Part shown: in pieces, positions 19,427-21,664 of the stretch
Layout: each line of letters begins with the position of its first letter
How positions within the stretch are numbered: the first letter of the stretch is position 1
NCBI GenBank assembly: GCA_016841605.1
Contig: JAENYV010000010.1
Location: forward strand, 62,001-126,000
DNA from: Dethiobacter alkaliphilus
GTDB lineage: Bacteria > Bacillota > Dethiobacteria > DTU022 > UBA8154
DNA: 64,000 nucleotides
Direction of reading: 5' to 3'
Position numbers and translations under genes: made by a program
Notes under the pieces: generated by a model
The model's input: the letters and a program-made list of their open reading frames with translations, nothing else
What the model was told of the DNA's origin: nothing
The model's database searches: none

Positions 19427-20176
19427 TTAGACCTCAAATATTTCCTTGACCGCGATTTCCAAACCATCAAAGAAATAGGAAATTATTGTATCCCCAAGCT
19501 TATATACGGTATATTCATCGACTTCAAAATCCTTAAAGCCATAGACCAGAACTAACTGCTTTTTAGGATCAACGATCCAGAATTCCCGTACACCGGACAA
19601 CATAAACGTATTGAGCTTATCCACCATATCCTTGGAGCGGGTGCTTTTTGATAAAATTTCGATGCAGAGTGTGGGTGTCCCCATATATCTGCCTTTTTCG
19701 TTGACAGTATTCTCTAAATCACAGGCAATAAGTAAATCGGGCTGCATAACATCAGGTGTTTTGAAATCTTTTTTATGGAAATGAACATCAAAAGGAGCAT
19801 AAAAAACTTTACATTTCCTGTCTTTCAGGTATGTCCGCAGCTGAATAAACAGATTCCCGGAAATATCCTGATGAAAGGTATTAGGGGAAGCTAAAAGAAC
19901 TATTTCCCCATTGATATACTCCATCCTCAGCTCGCTTTTTTCGTAAATCTCCATAAATTCCTCGTACGATACTTTCTTGCCGCCATACTGATAATCCAGC
20001 GCATGTTCCTTAACCGTAAAATATCGTTCGATCTCCGTAATATAAGGCGTAATTCGTACGGCTTTTTGGCCGTTTTTCGTAATTATAACCTCGTGGTCAT
20101 CAATCACGTAGTCAAGATACTTGCCCAAATTTGACTTAAACTCCGTAGCTGAAATAACTTTTGTGGTATCGCTCAT
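19427..20176 (-). CDS. Phd/YefM-antitoxin-like domain fused to a Uma2-family endonuclease
   Basis: A 249-residue two-domain protein. Residues about 5-50 are a Phd/YefM-type antitoxin DNA-binding domain (I-S-A-T-E-F-K, L-G-K-Y-L-D, I-T-K-N-G-Q). Residues about 70-245 form a Uma2 (DUF820) PD-(D/E)XK-like nuclease domain with P-D-L-L-I-A-C-D and I-E-I-L-S-K-S-T. Uma2 proteins are abundant in cyanobacteria and some Firmicutes and their biological role is unclear. The ATG at 20176 has GAGGTGAT seven bases upstream; the open frame extends 29 codons further but without a start signal. Twin TCGTACGA sites lie in the promoter, fitting autoregulation. Confidence 0.82.
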   Translation of the reverse strand: MSDTTKVISATEFKSNLGKYLDYVIDDHEVIITKNGQKAVRITPYITEIERYFTVKEHALDYQYGGKKVSYEEFMEIYEKSELRMEYINGEIVLLASPNTFHQDISGNLFIQLRTYLKDRKCKVFYAPFDVHFHKKDFKTPDVMQPDLLIACDLENTVNEKGRYMGTPTLCIEILSKSTRSKDMVDKLNTFMLSGVREFWIVDPKKQLVLVYGFKDFEVDEYTVYKLGDTIISYFFDGLEIAVKEIFEV

Positions 20177-20189
20177 GCTCGTTATCACC

Positions 20190-20247
20190 TCGTACGACGA
20201 TTGTATCATATTGAACGAAAAAAAGCAACAACATAAATATCGTACGA
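20190..20247 (-). promoter_or_regulatory. Promoter with twin TCGTACGA operators for the Phd-Uma2 gene
   Basis: On the minus strand TTGCTT (20223-20228) and TACAAT (20200-20205) are 17 bp apart. Two identical palindromic octamers TCGTACGA lie just outside the boxes at 20190-20197 and 20240-20247, exactly 50 bp apart. This is a typical arrangement for cooperative binding by an antitoxin-like repressor. Confidence 0.7.
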
Positions 20248-20263
20248 AAAAATATTTTAGCAA

Positions 20264-20593
20264 AAATTTTTTGGATTACTTGCAAAACTTAAGGTTATCT
20301 GTTATAATAAAATCAAGCACCATCCCTATAGTGACTTCGGTTCAAATGCTTTTGCAAGACCATTTAATTTCCGGTTTTTTGCAAGGTAGTTAATCAGTCT
20401 GAGGATAGTGTTTTTTTTACAATTGATCCGACATGTTTCAAAAAAATGTTTGTTTTGTTAGTCCGATTCGTAAGTGGATCCGTAAGTAATTGACAGTTAG
20501 AAAGTGTGTTAAGAATCTTTATGGTAACAAGACCAGGTAATCCCGAATCAGGTTCGTTTAGTTGTTTGATTAAGCTATAGGGATGGTTGCTGT
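20264..20593. other. Gene-poor AT-rich stretch upstream of two hairpins
   Basis: I see no convincing gene here. One 72-codon minus-strand frame (20394-20612) lacks a ribosome binding site and recognisable features. The stretch TCTTTATGGTAACAAGACC at 20516-20534 recurs with one change at 61997-62015. This may be the remains of a mobile element or an unannotated transcript ending at the hairpin that follows. Confidence 0.3.
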
Positions 20594-20626
20594 AACGGGG
20601 GGGGGTAAGCAAACCCCCCCGTTTTT
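20594..20626 (+). terminator. G-rich/C-rich terminator hairpin
   Basis: AACGGGGGGG (from 20594) pairs with CCCCCCCGTT across a short A-rich loop, followed by TTTTT (20622-20626). It has the form of a strong plus-strand Rho-independent terminator, though no recognised plus-strand gene precedes it. Confidence 0.6.
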
Positions 20627-20639
20627 AGTTCTGTATTAC

Positions 20640-20668
20640 GAAAACCACCTGATATGCAGGTGGTTTTC
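20640..20668. terminator. 12-bp perfect hairpin, likely terminator after the methyltransferase gene
   Basis: GAAAACCACCTG (20640-20651) and CAGGTGGTTTTC (20657-20668) enclose a 5-nt loop. On either strand the right arm ends in TTTTC. It lies 200 bp past the stop of the minus-strand methyltransferase gene and probably ends that transcript. Confidence 0.45.
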
Positions 20669-20865: not shown

Positions 20866-21633
20866 TTACATTTTTTTCCCAATATAAAATACATATCCAT
20901 AATACTGTTTGTATTTTGAATACAAGTCTGCCTCACGCCTCATAAATGCAATCATATCCTCAACGGTTTTATTTCCCGCATGTTTTTTCAAGAATACCTC
21001 TTGCCTTGCTTTTTGCGGAATAAAATAATTGTCTATCCAACAATTTTCAGGCAGCGTAAATGCGGCAACAGGAATATAACCTATTCTTTGCATGATAGAA
21101 ATATTATGCCCTATTGTGTCAATTTCAGGAACTGCGTCCACCCACCACTTCTCAATTTCAGCGGGGCGCTCTTCGGTAAACCATGACTCATATGTTACGG
21201 CAATATAACCATCTTTTTTGAGGAAGCCCTTCCAGTGATTCAAACCTTTTTCAAAACCTATATTGGCAATGGCGCCCTCAGACCATATAAGATCAAATTC
21301 GTCATTCTGAAACGGCAAATTATCCATTGAACCGACGATACCTTTTACCCTGTTCTGTAAACCAAGTTTTGCGGCTGTTGCGTTAAGTTTATCAATCGAG
21401 CCGGCGTAAAGGTCGAGGGCGGTGATGGTTGCTTCTGTATTTTGTGCCAGAACCATTGTTTGAGCGCCTGTTCCGCAGCCTAAATCGGCGATTTTTGTTT
21501 TGTTTGAAAGATTGCCGATAAAACCTAATGCCCTGATGGTTTCTTCGGGGCTGCCGGGTCCCTGCCGTTCAAGCTCTGTGAAAAATTCATTGATGAGGCC
21601 AAAATCAAATTCATGGATTGTTATTTCTTTCAT
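20866..21633 (-). CDS. Class I SAM-dependent methyltransferase
   Basis: A 255-residue methyltransferase with motif I A-D-L-G-C-G-T-G near residue 50, an acidic strand-2 end (A-L-D-L-Y), and F-D-L-I-W-S-E-G-A as motif IV. The long C-terminal part (after about residue 150) is rich in aromatic residues and may bind the substrate. The ATG at 21633 is seven bases after AAGGAG; another ATG two codons upstream almost touches that box. It is a single gene flanked by hairpins, in an accessory, lower-GC stretch. Substrate unknown. Confidence 0.85.
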   Translation of the reverse strand: MKEITIHEFDFGLINEFFTELERQGPGSPEETIRALGFIGNLSNKTKIADLGCGTGAQTMVLAQNTEATITALDLYAGSIDKLNATAAKLGLQNRVKGIVGSMDNLPFQNDEFDLIWSEGAIANIGFEKGLNHWKGFLKKDGYIAVTYESWFTEERPAEIEKWWVDAVPEIDTIGHNISIMQRIGYIPVAAFTLPENCWIDNYFIPQKARQEVFLKKHAGNKTVEDMIAFMRREADLYSKYKQYYGYVFYIGKKM

Positions 21634-21664
21634 TGTCATACTCCTTATCTTCTAATTAGTATTA

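Follow-up and report, generated by a model that had tools for sequence, protein, structure and literature searches.

A Phd-Uma2 fusion gene of Dethiobacter alkaliphilus with three predicted operators across its own promoter

The stretch of Dethiobacter alkaliphilus DNA analysed here (the window, 64,000 nucleotides in all) carries on its minus strand a gene in which a Phd/YefM-type DNA-binding domain and a Uma2 nuclease-like domain are joined, and whose promoter holds three predicted operators. The reading that we favour, at a probability of roughly 0.72, is that of a stand-alone one-gene module, i.e., a Uma2 nuclease-like protein, likely a nucleic-acid-cutting effector, which is equipped with its own Phd repressor domain and represses itself through these three sites.

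The fusion gene (19427-20176, minus strand) starts with the ATG at 20176 and encodes 249 amino acids, as delimited by the open reading frame, the Pfam matches and the full-length homologs. Residues 6-45 (20042-20161, minus strand) make up the Phd/YefM DNA-binding domain (PF02604, E 2.8e-10), which is also matched by the NCBI Phd family model TIGR01552 and by Foldseek, and residues 72-243 (19448-19963, minus strand) form the Uma2 PD-(D/E)XK nuclease-like domain (PF05685, E 6.4e-28; Foldseek). Both matches, PhdYeFM_antitox and Uma2, exceed the Pfam cut-offs in this product, and the claim of a preliminary description that the two domain types share a single chain is borne out by a real open reading frame. 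Given that Pfam recognises both domains, the architecture is visible to databases. The two domains are also present in 45 of the 45 aligned members, all of them from the window's side of the family (clade A), which were judged at E <= 0.001, the Pfam cut-off itself being shown for the window protein. A structure model built from a 45-sequence alignment has a mean pLDDT of 85.8 and a weak linker, in which residues 50-53 fall below 50. The top Foldseek matches of this model are the Uma2 structures 6okh, 9y1l, 3ot2 and 1wdj (E 5e-14 to 1.5e-10), and a short part of it matches the P1 Phd-operator complexes 4zm2 and 4zm0, VapB46 and the YefM-DNA structure 6l8e, at modest E values of 0.008-0.08.

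The Phd profile was matched at positions 2-42 of 74, which correspond to the N-terminal DNA-binding half only, and with the Pfam match ending at 42 of 74 the toxin-neutralising, toxin-binding tail of Phd is not recognisable in the fusion sequence. The stretch that follows the match is a low-confidence linker, with block-mean pLDDT values of 65 and 52 over residues 41-60. While the joining of the domains stands, the earlier wording of an antitoxin fused to a toxin is therefore too strong. Lysines K14 and K34 of clade A may by motif be the counterparts of R10 and R31 of YefM, and residue 14 of the other side of the family (clade C) is Q in 77 of 81 members, K in three and F in one. YefM reportedly needs both arginines to bind DNA (PMC4803016), and its fold, according to the available text of another study, lacks a canonical DNA-binding motif (PMC3920265). 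Two clade C members that were tested score 24.6 and 23.8, below the Pfam Phd cut-off of 29.8. Elsewhere in the window's genome, a Phd gene on its own, its product bearing a TATELK motif (L007, G000:C11:209576), is followed by a gene whose product resembles a PIN-type toxin, as judged by reading its sequence, and this Phd gene is plausibly a relative of the source of the fusion domain.

In the Uma2 half, the predicted catalytic residues E86, H102, D147, E173 and K187 are invariant in all 93 aligned fusions, which come from three groups of 46, 35 and 12, and likewise in 45 of 45 members of a subset of the same family. The model PDLC04832 of the PADLOC candidate PDC-S03 matches residues 67-248, the Uma2 part only, with an E value of 2.4e-56; we take PDC to mean "phage defence candidate", and the name PDC-S03 was not found in the literature searched. 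The Uma2 residues of the fusion agree with the PD-EXX-K motif reported for COG4636, in which the lysine has migrated (PMC551604). Makarova et al. 2009 called Uma2 a likely solo toxin (PMC2701414), and cyanobacteria are described as having very large numbers of proteins of this family, the function of which is unproven (PMC2701414, PMC551604); in the accessible portions of the literature on the family, no demonstration of Uma2 toxicity was found. Three further Uma2 genes of the window's genome carry an HTH in place of Phd, one assigned by Pfam (L006, HTH_17) and two by sequence likeness (L004 and L005), and excisionase-type HTH-Uma2 genes are also found at L034, L036, L038-L040, L043 and L088, the last of these lying 53 bp from a Phd-Uma2 gene. 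The combination of a DNA-binding domain with Uma2 seems to be a recurring design, and the ten HTH-Uma2 promoters inspected, found by motif, have no operator arrays of the fusion type.

Upstream of the fusion gene, two identical octamers, TCGTACGA, lie exactly 50 bp apart on the minus strand, as had been reported. The proximal predicted operator (20190-20197), which is conserved in homologs, abuts the Shine-Dalgarno sequence GAGGTG (20186-20191, minus strand), the latter overlapping the end of the operator, and the distal one (20240-20247) lies upstream of the -35 box. The two-site system proposed at first overlooked a degenerate third site, TCGTTCAA (20211-20218, minus strand), which agrees with the octamer at six of eight positions, is conserved in homologs and divides the 50 bp into a step of 29 bp, towards the distal site, and one of 21 bp, towards the proximal site. 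At 10.5 bp per turn, the full distance amounts to 4.76 helical turns rather than to the near-integral number that had been assumed; the 21-bp step corresponds to 2.0 turns, and the 29-bp step, at 2.76, is non-integral.

The promoter itself consists of the -35 box TTGCTT (20223-20228), the TTG of which is conserved in homologs, and, after a 17-bp spacer, of the extended -10 box TGA-TACAAT (20200-20205), with TG and TAnnnT conserved, both on the minus strand. A consensus promoter scan listed neither of these boxes, the -35 box being weak, and their register is shared among the homolog promoters, in which a TTG -35 box is separated by 17 bp from an extended -10 box of the form TGnTAnnnT. In this register, the middle operator falls within the spacer and the proximal operator over the expected transcription start. 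Judged from this arrangement of letters, the three sites bracket and fill the promoter, and a protein bound to them would block RNA polymerase directly. A palindromic operator overlapping the promoter is found at the sequence level in clade A, and in clade C with TAGCTA.

The octamer TCGTACGA is present four times in the window, compared with 0.33 expected, a count reached by none of 100 shuffles, and the entire 4.07-Mb genome has 11 copies. Three of these 11 copies fall within 286 bp at the fusion gene, two in the promoter and one within the coding sequence (19962-19969, minus strand), where it spans the codons of S-Y-E. All of the remaining eight lie inside open frames of 60 amino acids or more, the frames having been found mechanically; one of them (L011) has a 7/8 copy 11 bp away, and the 21/29-bp array is present at none of the eight. 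Since only two of the 11 genomic octamers are outside open frames, both at the fusion promoter, the target appears to be the gene itself, and the octamer was rejected as the signal of a regulon. The copy in the coding sequence, which three of 185 fusions have, is probably incidental and was discarded as an internal operator.

The preliminary description had named the absence of the site upstream of homologous genes as the outcome that would count against it. The comparison covered 46 loci, consisting of the window and 45 relatives that are at least 69% identical, drawn from 80 loci, and the exact octamer is present within the last 130 bp upstream in 38 of the 46, window included. Across these 46 promoters there are 137 matches of at least 6/8, where 200 single-base shuffles gave 19.9, with 34 as their largest count, and 34 more distant relatives, at 61-68% identity, have 74 such matches, compared with 14.2 in the shuffles (largest 29). 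The commonest gap in the 46 loci is 21 bp (38 times), and 29 bp is found 22 times. Measured upstream from the proximal anchor, the sites peak at exactly 21 and 50 bp, where matches of at least 6/8 are found in 36/44 and 24/44 promoters, respectively, two of the 46 loci (L074 and L081) having no anchor, i.e., no proximal site of 6/8. Among the distant relatives, a step of 20-23 bp between sites of at least 6/8 is present in 22 of 34 and absent in 12, and three have no site at all.

The middle site was also assessed without selection. From the 185 fusions, promoters were taken that have a proximal site of at least 7/8 and a site of at least 6/8 exactly 50 bp upstream, and in the 26 that qualify the position between them scores 7 in three, 6 in 21 and 5 in two, i.e., at least 6 in 24 of 26. 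It carries on average 1.32 bits of information per position, compared with 0.19 far upstream; the outer sites reach 1.69 and 1.84 bits, values that reflect their selection by octamer likeness, the middle site alone being independent. As these loci are related by descent, the fixed 29+21 geometry does not represent 26 independent events.

The full fusion set, gathered from the window's own genome, 60 relatives, genome contigs and 398 genomes of the phylum, consists of 210 open reading frames found by profile, 185 of them distinct. Two members of an extreme branch (L033 and L035), which may not be Phd fusions, were left out of the clade counts, and one (L107), whose upstream region is a run of N, was left out of the promoter counts. 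The resulting tree of 183 places 102 members on the window's side (clade A) and 81 on the other (clade C); it was made by a quick method with a midpoint root, and the SH-aLRT value of 86 for both sides is below the method's own mark of 95. When operator types were assigned by a rule of our own over the last 140 bp, with clade determined there by identity, 90 of the 102 clade A promoters were CGTACG-type, 12 unassigned and none TAGCTA-type, and 78 of the 81 clade C promoters were TAGCTA-type, three unassigned and none CGTACG-type. The spacing of TAGCTA is less regular, with exact pairs in 77 promoters at 9 bp (21 times), 22 bp (18), 23 bp (13) and 17 bp (9).

Residue 14 follows the same division, being K in 105 of the 185 fusions, Q in 77, A in two and F in one, with K14 accompanying the CGTACG type and Q14 accompanying TAGCTA. 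The hexamer TAGCTA is found in 75 of the 77 promoters of Q14 proteins, compared with 3.1 expected, and CGTACG in 63 of the 105 promoters of K14 proteins, compared with 1.6 expected, and in none of the 77 of the Q14 class. As a sole specificity switch, residue 14 was rejected, given that TAGCTA is kept by L168, L169 and L173, three proteins that have K14 and yet fall within clade C, and its correlation with the operator, running with the clade, represents in effect one evolutionary event. Both operator types are present in the window's genome, with the window gene on one side and the TAGCTA paralogs L002 and L003 on the other, and a TAGCTA pair with a 15-17-base gap is found once in this genome, in the promoter of L003. 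Several loci hold two or three adjacent Phd-Uma2 fusions (L048, L073, L080, L082, L124 and L228, the last being G068:C19), and at L080, L082 and L124 a clade A member neighbours one or two clade C members; one fusion of the G068:C19 pair has an internal stop.

The spread of the fusion is patchy over many Bacillota families, and the paralog L003 has a match at E <= 1e-40 in 62 of 398 phylum genomes, some of them in the Uma2 part only. Among 115 loci, each neighbour family was found at nine at most, within flanks of up to about 3 kb that are often cut by contig ends. The most frequent neighbours belong to a family that is ATPase-like by sequence (9/115 loci, scattered), followed by Uma2-containing genes (8/115), mostly at 205 bp or less and the longest of which is an HTH-Uma2, and by response-regulator-like and MATE-like families, with six loci each. 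Upstream of the fusion gene in the window lies a class I SAM-dependent methyltransferase gene (20866-21639, minus strand), and within the flanks of the 115 loci a methyltransferase was not found as a recurring neighbour. Carriage by phages or plasmids was considered and rejected, as none of the searches returned a full fusion: among viral contigs, eight stretches matched a pattern and none encodes a relative; the phage search gave one partial, Uma2-only match; and the matches in the 41 plasmid records start no earlier than query residue 26, and 39 of them no earlier than residue 51.

Divergent to the fusion gene, on the plus strand (20276-20640), a promoter (TTGCAA, 17 bp, TATAAT) would give rise to an RNA of about 300 nt, possibly an undescribed structured RNA, with ends that pair (GCACCATCCCTATAG with CTATAGGGATGGTTGC) and a strong terminator at its end. 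Its folding energy of -92.3 kcal/mol, compared with a shuffle mean of -70.7 (z -4.6), is better than that of 100 of 100 shuffles. No Rfam family matched this region at its cut-off, and no match was found in the 39 relatives searched; six of 298 other phylum genomes have matches, such as one of 71% over 324 nt in G173. The relatives are L230, L231, L232/L236 and L233, that at L234 being weaker and that at L235 looking like chance, and covariation is weak, both partners having changed in four of the 54 pairs predicted, across four sequences.

In the mechanism that we propose for the autorepressing one-gene module, dimers of the fusion protein would bind the distal, middle and proximal palindromes, spaced 29 and 21 bp, and, with the sites upstream of the -35 box, in the spacer and over the start occupied, RNA polymerase would be blocked and the level of the protein kept low. 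The Uma2 domains would be a natural bridge, in the role played in phd-doc or yefM-yoeB by a separate toxin, and the 21-bp step, by analogy with the 12 bp of YefM, looks as if it left room for a larger body. As repressor and effector share one chain, a ratio-dependent toxin-antitoxin switch cannot operate, and release would instead have to come about through the loss, titration or proteolysis of the fusion protein itself. As effector, Uma2 would most likely cleave nucleic acid, and this might serve defence.

The preliminary description had predicted looping or cooperative self-repression, and it is the latter that agrees best with the anatomy of the promoter, given that sites which bracket and fill it fit steric, cooperative autorepression better than looping. 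A DNA loop that joins two distant operators could draw on the perfect octamer pair at exactly 50 bp, which the window shares with seven of the other 45 loci, but the middle site is present in nearly all of the promoters with this spacing, other promoters use arrays of 21+21, 31+21 or 20-23 bp steps, and 4.76 turns would be very short for a loop, all of which leaves this the least credible of the readings. Hardly more credence can be given to the idea that the fusion acts in the manner of a restriction or homing enzyme, with the Phd domain directing the nuclease to TCGTACGA and the protein cutting there, at its own sites. A site-specific DNA-binding domain, a restriction-like fold and the patchy spread would suit such an enzyme, yet 13 genomes carrying a clade A fusion show no depletion of the octamer (87 copies, the promoter's own sites included, compared with a Markov estimate of 73.1), and no methyltransferase family is recurrent among the neighbours. 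Seven genomes without a match to the fusion have 45 octamers, compared with 42.5 expected, and the window's genome, minus the three copies of the locus, has eight, compared with 8.1; avoidance as a sign of self-cutting was thus not seen in these counts, and with neither this avoidance nor a recurring methyltransferase the gene does not group with restriction-modification systems.

The fusion is a single gene, unlike the two genes in one operon of type II systems, its operators are kept upstream of homologs whose neighbouring genes differ, and the lack of both a recurring neighbour and a recognisable neutralising tail argues against a strict toxin-antitoxin pair. It might nevertheless be a true single-chain unit, in which the Phd part neutralises a toxic Uma2 in cis until it is degraded: the Phd family is derived from antitoxins, single-chain toxin-antitoxin proteins such as EzeT exist (PMC4826407), and the solo-toxin proposal for Uma2 (PMC2701414) points the same way. 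The match to only the DNA-binding half of Phd, the low-confidence linker where the toxin-binding stretch of Phd/YefM would be and the lack of any report of Uma2 toxicity in the available literature speak against it, and we regard it as improbable. A somewhat better case, still an unlikely one, can be made for a protein that is a transcription factor only, with Uma2 kept for oligomerisation or sensing and devoid of nuclease activity, given the strong conservation of the operators and the fact that the nuclease activity is a predicted one. The five invariant residues of the Uma2 half would be unneeded in a purely structural domain, however, and the exact octamer reveals no regulon in the window's genome.

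A bolder extension of the autorepressed module, which we consider speculative and rather unlikely, is that these fusions represent one-gene "tripwire" nucleases in Bacillota, in which the same chain would be repressor, sensor and effector. Bound cooperatively to its triple operator, the fusion protein would be scarce and held in place; its titration or removal, or a disturbance of the promoter, for example during phage attack, would then lead to the bulk production of Uma2, which would cut nucleic acid. The diverged operators of the clades would in this case avoid cross-repression, as non-overlapping CGTACG-type and TAGCTA sites would keep coexisting fusions, even side-by-side ones, from repressing one another. 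The autorepression reading matters in itself, given that a branch of Uma2 brings its own operator, which makes binding, repression and release testable at once and allows a trigger to be sought with a simple reporter, and that two clades with cleanly separated operators provide, in their 168 assigned promoters, a natural data set on site reading by Phd/YefM proteins.

No description of a Phd-Uma2 fusion or of its operators was found in the literature searched, mostly open-access papers, a result short of proof of novelty. The partners that Makarova et al. 2009 name for PHD antitoxins, in the available text, are Fic/Doc, PIN, RelE and a MazF-type family (PMC2701414). With Uma2/COG4636/DUF820 the fusion shares the fold and the predicted PD-EXX-K site; that family has been described mainly from cyanobacteria, where its genes stand alone and are frequently grouped in paralogous cassettes (PMC2701414, PMC551604), and the fusion adds a repressor domain and operators. 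The likeness to the PADLOC candidate PDC-S03 is limited to this Uma2 part, residues 67-248. EzeT and the Ralstonia Phd-RelE fusion similarly have toxin and antitoxin-type domains in one chain (PMC4826407), with effector domains that differ from Uma2, and EzeT, according to the available text, neutralises in cis, for which no counterpart was seen in Phd-Uma2.

Among systems with Phd-type repressors, P1 Phd-Doc has the DNA-binding fold in common with the fusion (Foldseek 4zm2, 4zm0). There, the toxin bridges the antitoxin dimers and the toxin:antitoxin ratio is reported to set repression (PMC4803016), whereas the fusion lacks a recognisable C-terminal toxin-binding tail and its fixed 1:1 chain precludes ratio-dependent conditional cooperativity. 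Not all Phd-type antitoxins work through ratio and bridging, as described for the Enterococcus faecalis Phd, which uses a single palindrome (PMC13034048). In yefM-yoeB and axe-txe, as is predicted for the fusion, a Phd-fold repressor meets GTAC-core palindromes over the spacer, the -10 box or the start, and the paired sites are reported to be bound cooperatively, YefM binding pairs of TGTACA 12 bp apart, centre to centre, which overlap its own promoter (PMC7730913, PMC3920265). The fusion differs from these in the sequence of its sites (TCGTACGA, not TGTACA), in their number and spacing (three, with steps of 21 and 29 bp, not two with a step of 12 bp) and in an effector that is covalently attached to the repressor instead of being encoded by a separate toxin gene.
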